8,743 nt of DNA, taken from Thermoprotei archaeon (GTDB lineage Archaea; Thermoproteota; Thermoprotei_A; Marsarchaeales; UBA168). The stretch is taken from positions 1 through 8,743 of the forward strand of contig DSEZ01000062.1 in the NCBI GenBank assembly GCA_011055275.1, given 5' to 3'. Below the pieces are notes generated by a model. The model saw nothing but the letters and a program-made list of their open reading frames with translations. It ran no database searches and was not told the DNA's origin. The translations under genes were made by a program, and so were the position numbers. Numbering within the stretch: the stretch's first letter is position 1; every line of letters starts with the position of its first letter. This document shows positions 773-7,262 of the stretch, piece by piece.

Positions 773-1018
773 TTAGCTCCCAGAATAAGCCCTGATCGTT
801 GCAATGCTGTTATCCGCGACGCCAGACTTGGTCATGTCATCTGGGCATGCCCATATCTCACTTGCTGGAACATCTGCTCCTGTCAGCGCCTTAAGAACAA
901 ACTTTCTCTTGCCAGCAACCACGACTTCAAGGGAATCCACTATCTTGAGCTGTGTCGCAGTTTGGGGATTAATCTTCGCCTGGCCCTCCTTGACCGAGTC
1001 GTTCTTCTTCACCCTCAT
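773..1018 (-). CDS. Uncharacterised 81-residue protein, possible double-psi beta-barrel
   Basis: Function not recognised. The protein is small, soluble and has a single cysteine. It starts MRVKKNDSVKEG and has alternating hydrophobic strands with LEVVVAGKRKFVLKAL in the middle. It ends with a segment of the form DDM-x-KSGVADNSIATIR. The pattern 'KINPQTATQL ... VVVAGKRKF ... DDMTKSGVADNS' loosely recalls half-barrel motifs of double-psi beta-barrels such as the CDC48/VAT N-domain; that is a fold-level guess. The frame opens at ATG 1042, eight codons earlier, but the ATG at 1018 is preferred: an AT-rich, TATA-like stretch (1046-1056) lies about 30 bp upstream of it and would be too close to 1042. 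An AGGAGG string touches the 1018 ATG directly, too close for a normal ribosome site. The gene begins 63 nt after the glyS stop on the same strand, so it could also be read from glyS. Confidence 0.72.
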   Translation of the reverse strand: MRVKKNDSVKEGQAKINPQTATQLKIVDSLEVVVAGKRKFVLKALTGADVPASEIWACPDDMTKSGVADNSIATIRAYSGS

Positions 1019-1045
1019 CCTCCTCTCTATCCTGTGTTCCATAGC

Positions 1046-2842: not shown

Positions 2843-3439
2843 TCATCTAAACACCGCGCGACTTCTTACCAAGTAGACCAGAATCGCTAATGATGCCAAA
2901 AAGATGAAAGCAAAGACAAAATCAAGAAGCACTACCACGTAAAGAAGTGAGGACAGGGTCATAAAACCAGCTATTATGATCGAAAGCACAAGCCCCCATC
3001 TCTTCATGGCAAGTAGCCCTGCGGCCGACATGAACATAAAGACCGACATCGCCAGAGACGCGACACCCATGTAAAGCGAGTACGACATTATCTCAGAATA
3101 GGTGACCGTTATACCATAAGTCGAGAGGACTTGCAAGTTAAGCTGGTTAAGTAACGAGGGCGTTAACATGACTCTCATGGCAAGCATAACCGCACCGAGG
3201 AATAGCAGCACTACGCCCGTCAAAATCGATAAGACGCCTATAACGAGCACACCGATAGGCCTTTTCCTTGTGCTGCGTGGGGTTGCATCGAAACCTGAAG
3301 TCGGTGAACCCGTGGTTGCTGAACCTGTAGTAAGCTTGGCATTTTTTAAAGATGATCCACAATAAGGGCAGTACCATATTTGCCCGGGAGGCAGTTCATG
3401 CCCACAGTAAGGACAATACCTTTTCTCCTGATCCGACAT
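2843..3439 (-). CDS. Zinc-ribbon membrane protein of unknown function
   Basis: A 198-residue protein with an N-terminal cytoplasmic-type zinc ribbon, YCPYCG (8-13) and YCPYCG (23-28), giving C9/C12 and C24/C27 as probable ligands. A Ser/Thr/Gly-rich linker (about 29-57) follows, then a basic RKRP. The rest is strongly hydrophobic: a helix at about 62-88, a 25-residue polar loop, then helices at about 118-144 and 149-191 (one long or two short), giving three or four membrane passes. Zinc-ribbon-plus-membrane proteins of this layout are common in archaea and mostly uncharacterised; no specific function is recognised. The ATG at 3439 is preferred to an in-frame TTG at 3463, because the TTG would lie inside the promoter region and the ATG sits about 27 bp from a TATA-like stretch. 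It is divergent from the Lrp-family gene and 48 nt upstream of glyS. Confidence 0.85.
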   Translation of the reverse strand: MSDQEKRYCPYCGHELPPGQIWYCPYCGSSLKNAKLTTGSATTGSPTSGFDATPRSTRKRPIGVLVIGVLSILTGVVLLFLGAVMLAMRVMLTPSLLNQLNLQVLSTYGITVTYSEIMSYSLYMGVASLAMSVFMFMSAAGLLAMKRWGLVLSIIIAGFMTLSSLLYVVVLLDFVFAFIFLASLAILVYLVRSRAVFR

Positions 3440-3459
3440 AATGTAAGCGCTTGGAGTGC

Positions 3460-3470
3460 TCAAAAGTTTT
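3460..3470 (-). promoter_or_regulatory. Weak TATA-like element of the zinc-ribbon membrane gene
   Basis: The minus strand reads AAAACTTTTGA, centred about 26 bp upstream of the ATG at 3439. It is a poor TATA match, judged mainly by position, and it overlaps one arm of the inverted repeat at 3465-3486. Confidence 0.35.
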
Positions 3471-3583: not shown

Positions 3584-4042
3584 ATGGAAGTAGATGAGCT
3601 CGATCTAAAAATTCTGGAGCTACTTCAGGAAAATGGAAAAATGGGTTACAGAGAAATGGCCGAAAAATTAAACACAAATCCCAGCACGATCTTTAACAGG
3701 GTTCGGTCTTTAGAAACTAACGGAATAATAAGGAAATATACAGCAATCCTTAACCCGGATAGCCTAGGTTACGAGATCACCGCGGTGATCATGATAAGGG
3801 CAAGTGGCCCCCGTATAGTCGACATCGAAAAAGAGCTGGCTTCCATGCCCGAAGTATCCCTAGTTTACGACATAACAGGAGAATTTGACATAATGGTAGG
3901 AGCGAAATTCAAAGACAGAAATTCTCTGAACAAGTTCGTCAAGAAAGTACTAGCCCTCCAAGGAGTTGAAAGGACCACGACGAACTTGGTGCTCAACGTG
4001 GTCAAGGAAGAGCCAGCGCTTCCCATTCAAGTCGACGATTGA
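3584..4042 (+). CDS. Lrp/AsnC-family transcriptional regulator
   Basis: A DNA-binding regulator with the standard Lrp/AsnC length (152 residues) and two domains. The N-terminal winged helix-turn-helix begins ELDLKILELLQENG (5-18), with the recognition helix around 33-46 (PSTIFNRVRSLETN), followed by the hinge GIIRKYTAILNPDSLGY (47-63). The C-terminal RAM ligand-binding/oligomerisation domain spans about 64-142 and includes YDITGEFDIMV (95-105), the conserved turn that helps form the effector pocket. Known family members sense amino acids or related small molecules and assemble into octamers; the effector here cannot be read from sequence. The gene has its own TATA box and no SD, diverges from the zinc-ribbon membrane gene, and its last 16 bp overlap the end of the convergent stomatin-like gene. 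Targets may include itself and the neighbouring promoters that carry palindromes. Confidence 0.95.
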   Translation: MEVDELDLKILELLQENGKMGYREMAEKLNTNPSTIFNRVRSLETNGIIRKYTAILNPDSLGYEITAVIMIRASGPRIVDIEKELASMPEVSLVYDITGEFDIMVGAKFKDRNSLNKFVKKVLALQGVERTTTNLVLNVVKEEPALPIQVDD

Positions 4043-4947
4043 TCTCTTTTTTCGCCTTCCTCGGTATAGGCCTTCACGAAGTCAGATATGGGCTTAAGCA
4101 TTGTCACGAACTCCATCGGGAATATGTACTTAGTTGAAGGGCTTGATCCTAGCTGCTTAAGTGCGTCAAAGTACTGAAGCGTCATCGTCTTCGCGTCGAT
4201 GGTCTTCGCGGCTTCAGAAATCGTTTTCAGCGCGGTGGCAAGGCCCTCCGCCCTTAGTATCGCTGCTTGCTTGTCACCTTCAGCTCTTAATATTTCGGAT
4301 TGCTTGTCACCTTCAGCTACGGTGATCGTTGCCGTCTTCTTTCCATCTGCCTCGATGACTATCGCCCTTCTGTTCCTCTCGGCAGACATCTGCTTGATCA
4401 TGGCGTCCTGAACATCCTTAGGGGGTATTATCTCCCTTATCTCAACGCTCGATACCTTAACTCCCCATCTCGCAGTGACCTCGTCCAGCTTGCTCCGCAG
4501 TATGGCATTTATGGTATCTCTTTTCGCCAATATTTCGTCCAGCTGGATGTCACCGATGACAGCCCTAAGGGTCGTCGTGGCTATTCCCGTAGCTGCGCCT
4601 TCGAAATTTTGCACTTGAACCACAGAATCCGTGGCATTAAACACTTTCGTGTATATTAGAAAGTCTATGTCCACTGGCGCGTTATCTTTCGTTATGCATG
4701 TCTGATGAGGGACGGTTATGTAACGTTCCCTGAGGTCCACCTTCTTGGGCACGTCTACGAAAGGTATTATGAAAACTATGCCAGGTCCTTTCTCACCTAT
4801 GACTCTCCCAAACCTGAAAACGACCAACCTCTCGTACTCCCTAACTATCCTTATGGAGTAAGCAAGAAATATTATAATTATTATCAGAACGACTATTGCG
4901 GCTATAACGGAGGCTGAGGCTACCGCAACCTGTTCAAAAAATATCAT
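4027..4947 (-). CDS. SPFH/stomatin-like membrane protein (band 7 family)
   Basis: A membrane-anchored scaffold protein of the stomatin/prohibitin type, 306 residues. One N-terminal hydrophobic segment (about 9-31) is followed by the band 7 domain: REYERLVVFRFGRVIGEKGP (36-55), IIPFVDVPKKVDLRERYITV (60-79), a long beta-rich core, and RDTINAILRSKLDEVTARWG (143-162). Then comes SVEIREIIPPKDVQDAMIKQ (167-186) and a charged coiled coil (about 187-240) with two 11-residue repeats starting AEGDKQ. Archaeal stomatins are often cleaved by a partner NfeD-type protease; no such gene adjoins this one. The ATG at 4947 is preferred to an in-frame TTG at 4968, since the TTG lies within the TATA box. The gene overlaps the convergent Lrp-family gene by 16 bp. 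Function beyond membrane organisation or protein quality control cannot be specified. Confidence 0.95.
   Translation of the reverse strand: MIFFEQVAVASASVIAAIVVLIIIIIFLAYSIRIVREYERLVVFRFGRVIGEKGPGIVFIIPFVDVPKKVDLRERYITVPHQTCITKDNAPVDIDFLIYTKVFNATDSVVQVQNFEGAATGIATTTLRAVIGDIQLDEILAKRDTINAILRSKLDEVTARWGVKVSSVEIREIIPPKDVQDAMIKQMSAERNRRAIVIEADGKKTATITVAEGDKQSEILRAEGDKQAAILRAEGLATALKTISEAAKTIDAKTMTLQYFDALKQLGSSPSTKYIFPMEFVTMLKPISDFVKAYTEEGEKRDQSST
4044..4052 (+). terminator. Possible U-tract terminator of the Lrp-family gene
   Basis: CTCTTTTTT follows the Lrp-family stop codon by one base and lies inside the 3' end of the convergent stomatin-like gene. U-rich tracts are the known archaeal termination signal. 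On the opposite strand the same bases encode the Glu-Lys-Arg near the stomatin C-terminus, so the T-run could also simply be lysine codons. Confidence 0.4.
4267..4318 (-). repeat. Direct repeat in the coiled coil of the stomatin-like gene
   Basis: A 19-bp sequence (TTGCTTGTCACCTTCAGCT on the plus strand) occurs at 4267-4285 and again, identical, at 4300-4318, a period of 33 bp. On the coding strand it gives two successive 11-residue units beginning AEGDKQ. DNA identity as well as protein identity suggests a recent or gene-converted tandem duplication, though this repeat is common in stomatin coiled coils. Confidence 0.75.
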
Positions 4948-4966
4948 AATTGCTAATCTCGCGCGC

Positions 4967-4974
4967 AATTATAA
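4967..4974 (-). promoter_or_regulatory. TATA box of the stomatin-like gene
   Basis: The minus strand reads TTATAATT, centred about 24 bp before the ATG at 4947. A short inverted repeat (AGGCTT at 4974-4979 with AAGCCT at 4985-4990) borders it on the upstream, BRE side. Confidence 0.65.
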
Positions 4975-5069: not shown

Positions 5070-5852
5070 CTACGAACCAAACCTCCTCTTGCGCCTTTGA
5101 AACGTGCGGATGGCCCTGTAGAGGTCTATTTTCCGAAACTGAGGCCAATAGGTATCCAAGAAAACGAGCTCAGAATAAGATGATTGCCAGAGCAGGAAGT
5201 TGCTCAACCTCTCCTCGCCTCCAGTTCTTATTATCATGTCCGGATCGTGAGAGCCGGCGGTATAAAGCGAGGAGGATACAACCTCCTCATCTATATCGTC
5301 GGGAGACAACTCTCCCCTAGCTACCCTTGAGGCGATACTCCTCACAGCTTTGACGATCTCATCCCTTCCGCCGTACCCCAAGGCTATTTGCAACAGCCGA
5401 TCATCGTTGTTTGCCGTCCTCTGCTCAACAAGCCTTATGGCATTTAATAAATCCTGAGAAAATAAGGAAAAGTCACCTATCACCTTGACCTTTACCCTTT
5501 TTTCAAATACATCTCTACTTTCTGCCAGCTCCGCAAGCCCCTTGGCGGATAGAGATAAAAGGTGTGAGACCTCATCTTTGGGCCTCCTAGATATATTCTC
5601 AGTTGACAACGCGTAAATCGTGACCTCCTTTACGCCAACTTCCCAAAACCAGTTCAACGCTTCCTTTAGCTTATTGTATCCGGCCTCGTGACCGTAATTA
5701 GGCGGAAAACCGAAAAGCGTCGCCCATCTCCTATTACCATCAAGGATGACGGCGATCGATGTCGGCATAGCTCCGTCTCTTATCTCTCTCCAGAGAACGT
5801 CTTCATATACCGCGTAAACCGGCCTCAAGACGCCAGTAATGACACGATGCAA
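5070..5852 (-). CDS. uppS: Cis-prenyltransferase (undecaprenyl/polyprenyl diphosphate synthase family)
   Basis: Condenses isopentenyl diphosphate onto an allylic diphosphate with cis double bonds, making the long polyprenyl diphosphate that archaea use as dolichol-type carrier for N-glycosylation. At 260 residues it has the usual family length. AVILDGNRRWA (34-44) holds the catalytic Asp38, and GHEAGYNK (54-61), YALSTENISRRPKDEV (80-95) and RTGGEERLSNFLLWQ (209-223) follow in order; the C-terminus ends with the family's basic RRKRRFG. The start is TTG at 5852, within a T7 run: the only later ATG (codon 29) would delete the N-terminal PVYAVYEDVLWREI segment, which archaeal homologues have. The gene begins 8 nt after the stop of the M24 peptidase and shows no promoter of its own, so the two are very probably co-transcribed. 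The product's chain length cannot be told from sequence. Confidence 0.95.
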   Translation of the reverse strand: MHRVITGVLRPVYAVYEDVLWREIRDGAMPTSIAVILDGNRRWATLFGFPPNYGHEAGYNKLKEALNWFWEVGVKEVTIYALSTENISRRPKDEVSHLLSLSAKGLAELAESRDVFEKRVKVKVIGDFSLFSQDLLNAIRLVEQRTANNDDRLLQIALGYGGRDEIVKAVRSIASRVARGELSPDDIDEEVVSSSLYTAGSHDPDMIIRTGGEERLSNFLLWQSSYSELVFLDTYWPQFRKIDLYRAIRTFQRRKRRFGS

Positions 5853-5860
5853 AAAAAGAC

Positions 5861-6925
5861 CTAAGGCACGACGGGCAGAGACGATAACCGCCTCACCTCT
5901 TTCTCCTCAGCCAAAAAATCGTCCTCTATCCTTATCCCTCCCACGCCCGGTATGTAAACCCCGGGCTCTATAGTGAAGACGTGGCCAGGCGAGAGGTGAT
6001 CTTTTGACGTTACGCTGAGGTAAGGATACTCATGAACGTCAAGCCCTATACCGTGGCCCAATGAGTGTATGTAGTACTTGTCAAGCCCATATTTCGCCAG
6101 ATTGGTTATGGCTAACTTGGCAACTTCTGAGAGAGGCTGCCCCACTTTCAACGAGTTATAGCACGTGTTTTGCGTTTCCCGGACGGCGTCAAAGCACCTT
6201 TTCATCATCCGGCCCACGTCTCCCATGAAGACCGTCCTAGTTAAGTCGCTGTCATAACCCTCATATTGCGCTCCAAAGTCTATGACCACTACCTCGCCAT
6301 CTCTTATTTTCTTGCTGCTTGACGTTGCATGTGGATTAGCTGCCCTCTCGCCACTGGCAACTATTGTGGGAAAAGCAACCCCTTCAGCTCCGCGTTCCTT
6401 CATTGCTTTCTCGAGTTCAGCTGCTACGTGATTCTCCGTAACGCCAGGCTTGACCTCTTCTAGCACTTCCTTAAATGAATCTTCGGCCACGCTTATAGCT
6501 CCTCTTATCCTTCTAAGCTCGTCTTCGTCCTTTATGGACCTGAGTTGTTCTATGACTTGTGAAATACCTGCCCACCTGTCGTTGTACTTCCTTATATGCT
6601 CATAAAAAGAAAGGGTCACGCTCTCATCTTCTAGGCCTAGTACCCCCTTCGAGGCCTCCTGGCCAACCGACCTCAACACTTCGTCTTGGAAGTTCTTGGT
6701 TTTCTCCACCACCACCAACTCGTCGTAGTTAGCGTCTTGAGCATCCGGAGCCTCCAGCTCTGTCACGTAAAGCCTACTCCTGCCGTCAGCACTGAGGAGG
6801 AGATAGGCTCCGCCAAGCCCCTTAAAGCCTGAAAAATACCTTAGCGATTCGTAAGAACTGATCAGGGCGTACTCAATAGAAGCTCCTTTGAACAGCGCTT
6901 GAATGCGCTTCTTAAAATCTATCAT
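5861..6925 (-). CDS. pepQ: M24 metallopeptidase, Xaa-Pro aminopeptidase/dipeptidase type
   Basis: Releases residues from peptides that have proline at the second position, a late step in cytosolic peptide recycling. The 354 residues show an N-terminal creatinase/prolidase-type domain (about 1-125) and the C-terminal pita-bread catalytic domain. All five dinuclear-metal ligands of the family are visible: D216 in VVVIDFGA, D227 in DSDLTRTVF, H291 in SLGHGIGLDVHE, E320 in FTIEPGVY and E334 in IRIEDDF. His199 in NPHAT and His298 are the usual accessory histidines. Whether it prefers dipeptides (PepQ) or longer peptides (PepP) cannot be decided here, so the gene symbol is tentative. The ATG at 6925 lies about 24 bp from an 18-bp palindrome that contains its TATA box. 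The gene follows the small four-cysteine gene by 47 nt and precedes uppS by 8 nt. Confidence 0.95.
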   Translation of the reverse strand: MIDFKKRIQALFKGASIEYALISSYESLRYFSGFKGLGGAYLLLSADGRSRLYVTELEAPDAQDANYDELVVVEKTKNFQDEVLRSVGQEASKGVLGLEDESVTLSFYEHIRKYNDRWAGISQVIEQLRSIKDEDELRRIRGAISVAEDSFKEVLEEVKPGVTENHVAAELEKAMKERGAEGVAFPTIVASGERAANPHATSSSKKIRDGEVVVIDFGAQYEGYDSDLTRTVFMGDVGRMMKRCFDAVRETQNTCYNSLKVGQPLSEVAKLAITNLAKYGLDKYYIHSLGHGIGLDVHEYPYLSVTSKDHLSPGHVFTIEPGVYIPGVGGIRIEDDFLAEEKEVRRLSSLPVVP

Positions 6926-6972: not shown

Positions 6973-7131
6973 TTAGCGGACAACAGCTTGTTTTTCTGAT
7001 CTAGAAAGCCACATAGTTAAAACCGTGCATGTTTCAGGCGAGTGAATTGTACCTTCTTCGCACTCCATCGTGAACGGGCATGTAAAACATGGAGGCAAAC
7101 TGTTTATGTCAAGCTTAATGGTCTCCTTCAT
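6973..7131 (-). CDS. Stand-alone TFE-beta/RPC39-type Fe-S domain mini-protein
   Basis: A 52-residue protein with four cysteines, C15, C18, C24 and C35, in the order PPCFTCPFTMEC - EEGTIHSPETC - LTMWL. The pattern CxxCP...C-x-EG...SP..C..L..WL resembles the C-terminal 4Fe-4S domain of RNA polymerase III subunit RPC39/Rpc34 and of archaeal TFE-beta, which helps open promoters. That assignment comes from recalled motif similarity, not a search. The winged helices of full TFE-beta are absent, so this is either a domain-only TFE-beta or an independent small Fe-S/Zn protein. The ATG at 7131 is preferred to an in-frame GTG at 7155, because a TATA-like TTAAAC lies about 28 bp upstream of the ATG. It diverges from enolase and runs 47 nt ahead of the peptidase gene with no evident terminator between. 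Confidence 0.75.
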   Translation of the reverse strand: MKETIKLDINSLPPCFTCPFTMECEEGTIHSPETCTVLTMWLSRSEKQAVVR

Positions 7132-7156
7132 CCTATGAGAGTTACGAGCGGCCACG

Positions 7157-7163
7157 TTTAAGC
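7157..7163 (-). promoter_or_regulatory. TATA-like box of the four-cysteine mini-gene
   Basis: The minus strand reads GCTTAAA, centred about 29 bp before the ATG at 7131. It is a moderate TATA match, and its position favours the ATG over the upstream GTG. Confidence 0.45.
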
Positions 7164-7234
7164 CTAGCTGTCTTCAGCAACGATCATAGGAACCATCGCA
7201 CCAGAAGCAGGCGTCGCCATTGTCCGTGAGAAAA

Positions 7235-7243
7235 GCATAATTA
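7235..7243 (+). promoter_or_regulatory. TATA box of enolase
   Basis: GCATAATTA is centred about 24 bp before the enolase ATG at 7263, fitting a leaderless message. The ten bases AAGCATAATT also occur in the glyS promoter. GAGGT (7258-7262) abuts the ATG, too close to act as a normal ribosome site. Confidence 0.6.
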
Positions 7244-7262
7244 CCGCCGCTGGTTAAGAGGT

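Follow-up and report, generated by a model that had tools for sequence, protein, structure and literature searches.

An apparently natural TFE-beta without a winged helix in the archaeal order Marsarchaeales

RESULTS

The locus and its neighborhood

The window, the whole 8,743-nucleotide stretch of Thermoprotei archaeon DNA analyzed here, contains a short gene that is single-copy in the source genome (G000: 806 kb in 168 contigs, 78% complete) (Table 1). By the ORF reading of the window, the gene starts with an ATG at position 7131 of the minus strand and encodes a product of 52 amino acids, here called the mini-protein. The CxxCP-x4-C-x10-C pattern with EG, SP, and LxxWL that the earlier note had read in this product is confirmed, with cysteines at positions 15, 18, 24, and 35 (C-x2-C-x5-C-x10-C) flanked by CP, EG, SP, and LTMWL. 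The earlier note also put the gene directly upstream of a peptidase and uppS, with enolase diverging from it, and Pfam bears this out for the window.

Table 1. Positions of the short TFE-beta gene and of other features in the window
Feature	Position	Strand	Remarks
89-residue ORF	773..1042	minus	Lies between the GlyRS and PGK genes; unmatched in Pfam at 1e-5; in three other genomes of the genus at 55–89% identity, one cut by a contig stretch
206-residue protein	2843..3463	minus	By eye, begins like a double zinc ribbon and has membrane-like segments; without a Pfam hit at 1e-5; 37–69% identity in three other genomes of the genus
SPFH/Band 7 protein	4030..4968	minus	Conservation unusually high: 93% identical in G022, where the other window genes present are 45–79% identical
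UppS-like undecaprenyl diphosphate synthase prenyltransferase	5070..5852	minus	Pfam; 8 bases after the peptidase
M24 (Xaa-Pro type) peptidase	5861..6925	minus	Pfam; 47 bases downstream of the short TFE-beta gene
Perfect 16-base palindrome around TTATAA	6941..6956		20-odd bases ahead of the peptidase start (by eye)
Short TFE-beta gene, without winged helix	6973..7131	minus	Stop codon follows 52 codons; C15, C18, C24, and C35 in an Fe-S-type domain
Gap to divergent enolase start	7132..7262		131 bases; a winged helix needs about 70 residues
TATA-like CTTAAA	7157..7162	minus	Spans −31 to −26 relative to the start codon; picked out by eye alone

The M24 peptidase adjoins the short gene in all four genomes of the genus, and the short gene, peptidase, and UppS occur together in all four; enolase lies elsewhere in G018. 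TATA-like boxes are also present, by eye, in the three other genomes of the genus, within 3 bases of the same place, so that such a box stands about 24–32 bases ahead of the start codon in four of four genomes. The position of the CTTAAA in the window would fit a leaderless transcript of the short gene. The TTATAA palindrome ahead of the peptidase suggests that the peptidase may also have a promoter of its own.

Beyond the genus, UppS lies near the short TFE-beta gene in four of six genomes of the second family of the order and near TFE-beta in both full-length regions examined at length (G013 and G033, the latter chosen because UppS was already visible there). Among the loci of about 3 kb, G033 is the sole full-length TFE-beta locus with UppS, and since UppS is thus rare at short range beside full-length TFE-beta, the neighborhood is taken as support only. 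In the second-family genome G001 the order of genes is FtsJ, short TFE-beta, Gar1 (below the Pfam cutoff, at 27.4 versus 29.3 bits), SRP19, and eS8, with UppS nearby; in the full-length region of G013 it is TFE-beta, TFB, and Gar1, followed by an eS8-like ORF, with UppS nearby. The surroundings of the short gene differ among second-family genera: Gar1 is next to it in L084 (G001), whereas in L087 (G014) eS8-, SRP19-, and Gar1-like ORFs are, by eye, divergent from TFE-beta, towards UppS.

Family assignment and the metal site

The proposal of the earlier note that the product is a TFE-beta/RPC39-like domain is borne out by profile comparison. An hhalign comparison of six mini-proteins with 26 full-length TFE-betas that represent eight other families of the class yields a probability of 98.5% and an E-value of 1.9e-15, and the alignment covers the C-terminal domain, the last third of TFE-beta. 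The cysteine spacing of 15/18/24/35 equals that of C92, C95, C101, and C112 in Sso TFE-beta (PMC4495717). At E < 0.1 the mini profile matches a single protein in the PDB, human RPC6 (E = 0.0014, C-terminal residues 285–314). The LDL-receptor module was considered and rejected, its matches being weaker than RPC6: LDL/VLDL receptor reached E = 0.29 in the search with the mini profile, and at best 0.21 in another mini-protein search in which RPC6 had E = 0.022. No unrelated zinc-ribbon family matched better than TFE-beta/RPC39 in the Pfam or profile searches.

With the single mini-protein sequence, Pfam returns RNA_pol_Rpc34 as the sole family, below its cutoff (E = 0.13; 12.1 versus 28.4 bits); a PF05158 search of the source genome gives nothing at E = 1, and NCBIfam matches neither the mini-protein nor a second-family form that was also searched. 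The AlphaFold model of the mini-protein is poor (mean pLDDT 68.7, pTM 0.39), and Foldseek with this model finds no PDB match. Searches of 5.8 billion proteins, admitting only candidates of similar length, returned two, four, and seven matches; those in organism-labelled databases are Marsarchaeota or "Thermoprotei archaeon," except for P0003, a partial Metallosphaera protein. The short TFE-beta protein of G020 is identical to B9Q02_08450 of Marsarchaeota G1 BE_D. A search for a relative of the mini-protein in phages gave no match. Judged from sequence, the mini-protein is a member of the TFE-beta orthologous group (archaeal RPC39/RPC34-like).

The nature of the metal is suggested by the characterized relatives. 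In Sso TFE-beta, four cysteines with this spacing bind a cubane 4Fe-4S cluster (PMC4495717), and according to a review four cysteines of human RPC6 carry a 4Fe-4S cluster in Pol III (PMC8837262). Both precedents make it improbable that the mini-protein has this fold and a TFE-alpha partner but holds zinc as a structural module, even though a 2009 description named the domain a Zn-finger (PMC2770514) and the two metals are indistinguishable by the computational tools used.

Short forms across the order and the TFE-alpha partner

The cysteine domain is present in all ten genomes of the order that were searched, which are incomplete assemblies (62–93% complete, the source genome included). In the genus of the source genome the proteins have 52–57 residues; in the second family they are forms of 79–93 residues, by the start codons chosen in the analysis. 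The stop-to-stop frames, which are upper bounds on length, span 54–66 aa in the genus and 90–155 aa in the second family, and the longest of them, the 155-aa frame of G016, is still devoid of a winged helix. The N-terminal extension of one second-family form is modelled as two helices with no strands, at low confidence (pLDDT 58.8). Three second-family genomes also gave four weak secondary matches (E = 0.13–0.48), which were rejected as additional TFE-betas, since their loci score at most 11.4 bits with the cysteine-domain profile, compared with at least 60.6 bits for the main short genes of the order.

The TFE-alpha model matches all ten genomes at 56.2–72.1 bits. Its cutoff of 22.9 bits is unspecific by itself, because 6 of 14 control genomes, at most four of the six being archaea, also pass it. 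All ten TFE-alphas have, by eye, a zinc-ribbon-like cysteine stretch. The source-genome protein, whose frame lies at G000:C147, around 9709–9969, has a TFIIE_alpha domain (56.1 bits) and a C-terminal tail; by eye its ribbon contains three cysteines, the number reported for Sso (PMC4495717).

A full-length TFE-beta was not found in the source genome or in the nine other genomes of the order, in agreement with what the earlier note expected of a minimal TFE-beta. Sso TFE-alpha alone was inactive, so a TFE-beta would be expected alongside the retained TFE-alpha. Of the roles that had been offered for the mini-protein, pairing with TFE-alpha is, by analogy, better supported than a free redox sensor, because TFE-alpha is present in ten of ten genomes and an engineered TFE-beta without its winged helix dimerizes with it (PMC4495717). 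That the mini-protein is a free Fe-S domain outside the basal machinery, serving as a small redox/oxygen sensor or acting with another partner, would be in line with the metabolic genes that adjoin it in the source genus and with the depletion of Sulfolobus TFE-beta under oxidative stress, whose cluster has been suggested to offer a point for inactivation. We consider this unlikely, however, as TFE-alpha is kept in every genome in which no other TFE-beta was found, and as the short gene of G001 still sits beside Gar1, SRP19, and eS8.

Absence of the winged helix

A winged-helix profile was built from the 26 full-length TFE-betas; in a leave-one-family-out control it recovered all 26, none below 31.9 bits. 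With this profile no in-frame winged helix was detected in any of the ten genomes of the order (−2.0 bits or lower, or no score), and no frame exceeds 1.6 bits within the 700 bases upstream (158 bases in G018). In the window itself, six frames over 700 bases upstream of the short gene give no signal, and there is no space for an upstream winged helix because the divergent enolase start is only 131 bases away. The earlier note had likewise seen no winged helix in the product.

Outside the order the pattern is the reverse. From 80 loci, four (L054, L057, L059, and L060) were dropped for want of a cysteine domain, and the remaining 76, all of them high-ranking matches and not a random sample, represent 59 distinct proteins. 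An in-frame winged helix of at least 40.4 bits is found in 59 of these 59, 33 of which are absent from the profile. Because some loci had been fetched with a family model that itself includes the winged helix, loci fetched by the cysteine domain were also counted separately, with the winged helix in 45 of 45 (27 absent from the profile).

In a scan of the class, 142 of 147 genomes match, 132 of them outside the order; among the 129 of these matches listed (without G081, G121, and G132), 128 have stop-to-stop frames of at least 121 aa, with four of the 128 alignments crossing one stop codon. The remaining match, in G136, has 97 aa and starts 169 bases into its contig. A scan of the phylum, which took genomes with completeness of at least 80 and excluded relatives in the order below that value, finds matches in 247 of 250 genomes, and among the matches listed the sole frame shorter than 117 aa is that of the source genome.

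It is very unlikely that the order has a split TFE-beta whose winged helix is supplied in trans by a separate gene. The genomes are incomplete, and a free match in G020 reaches 32.5 bits, close to the 31.9 bits of the most divergent left-out TFE-beta winged helix; that match, however, is a 189-residue MarR-like protein. The best free match in the genus, at 17.3 bits, is by Pfam a penicillinase-repressor-like protein, and 2 of the 10 genomes have no match at E = 1. The other free matches inspected appear by eye to be Lrp/AsnC-like, and the candidates for an independent winged-helix gene were accordingly rejected; a free TFE-beta winged helix was found in neither the source genome nor the nine others.

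Given that in all ten genomes the domain stands without a winged helix, we file the mini-protein as a winged-helix-free variant and not as a canonical two-domain TFE-beta. It looks like a natural TFE-beta lacking this domain. The simplest reading, as both families of the order are without it, is a single ancestral loss of the winged helix, which probably took place at the base of the order.

Conservation of the short gene

Conservation in relatives, on which the earlier note had made its reading depend, was found: orthologous short ORFs occur in three other genomes of the genus, at 94, 77, and 54% identity to the mini-protein, which is also matched by two proteins in databases, each exactly 52 aa long. 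Together these rule out a chance ORF. The start position is identical in four of four genomes, with ATG in three and TTG in G022. Between G000 and G005, the two closest genomes and the one pair in the genus from which dN and dS values were obtained, 46 codons contain 17 base differences, distributed 0/1/16 over codon positions 1/2/3, giving a dN of 0.029 and a dS of 0.833 (NG86) or 0.036 and 0.408 (YN00). All 38 aligned sequences keep Pro14 and the four cysteines (mini-protein numbering), and the N terminus of the mini-protein aligns as a short stretch immediately ahead of the PCxxC motif.

With the same start in four species and changes mostly at the third codon position, the gene looks functional. 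That the ORF is the decaying remnant of a TFE-beta gene, as its shortness and the loss of one domain might suggest, is scarcely credible in view of this codon-position bias, the shared start, and the retention of all four cysteines in every aligned sequence.

DISCUSSION

Our preferred reading, which we regard as probable, is that the TFE-beta of this lineage is reduced to its four-cysteine domain, which likely holds a 4Fe-4S cluster, pairs with TFE-alpha, and assists RNA polymerase in opening promoters without a winged helix. The cluster, the binding of TFE-alpha, and the role in promoter opening are likely by extension from Sulfolobus biochemistry. There, loss of the TFE-beta cluster abolishes the dimer with TFE-alpha (PMC4495717), and the deletion variant Sso TFE-beta delta 1-73 retains dimerization with TFE-alpha and clamp binding and sustains both melting and productive transcription, whereas delta 1-84 is probably unstable (PMC4495717). 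The mini-protein has 14 residues before its first cysteine, where delta 1-73 retains 18 and delta 1-84 has 7; aligned by the cysteines, its residue 1 corresponds to about residue 78 of the Sso protein. It thus begins between a tolerated and a probably unstable deletion, which suggests that it is close to the minimal working module.

In the mechanism that we propose, the four-cysteine domain would dock on the winged helix and tail of TFE-alpha, the 4Fe-4S cluster would keep the interface between TFE-alpha and TFE-beta together, and the pair would occupy the RNA polymerase clamp and promote DNA melting. The winged helix of Sulfolobus TFE-beta stabilized the PIC, and without it PIC stability in gel shifts dropped strongly, but it was apparently dispensable for melting and productive transcription (PMC4495717). 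As it seemed unneeded for these steps, initiation in this lineage probably proceeds with a TFE that is less anchored to DNA, or one that is anchored otherwise.

With archaeal TFE-beta (Sso0944 and Saci_1342; PMC4495717) the mini-protein shares the C-terminal domain, its cysteine spacing, the preceding strand, and the PCxxC motif. A TFE-alpha is likewise encoded in the same genome, and one second-family member shares part of the neighborhood of a full-length gene. The mini-protein differs in having no winged helix and 52 residues, in contrast to the 118–144 of the 26 aligned full-length proteins. Sso TFE-beta delta 1-73 covers nearly the same stretch, but it is a laboratory construct (PMC4495717), whereas the mini-protein is natural and conserved in its genus. 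Human RPC6 (RPC39) aligns over 30 residues that include all four cysteines, EG, SP, and TxWL; in contrast to the mini-protein, it contains winged helices and, at 316 residues, is a stable subunit of the polymerase. The TFE-beta of Haloferax volcanii also departs from the two-domain plan, and its winged helix is dispensable for dimerization, but the loss is the opposite one, the winged helix being kept and the cysteines lost (PMC5861453). No natural TFE-beta without a winged helix was found in the literature covered, subscription papers and bioRxiv lying outside that coverage.

The domain family is already known; the form without a winged helix appears, from the genomes, to be a variant of it that is present in every genome of the order sampled. 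Pure cultures of the former Candidatus Marsarchaeota exist (PMC12542729), and the claim is therefore testable in cells. For structural work, the mini-protein and TFE-alpha would offer a TFE pair of very small size. If the integrity of the cluster is the sole thing that holds TFE together, initiation could be gated directly by oxygen or redox state; the broader scenario, in which the whole order dropped the DNA-facing winged helix, relies on an Fe-S module that can be as small as 52 residues on TFE-alpha, and has redox-gated initiation genome-wide, is one that we advance only tentatively.

It was through engineered deletions that the roles of the TFE domains were established. An order that seems to carry the same deletion would provide a natural test of which domain is indispensable, and it points to the Fe-S domain.
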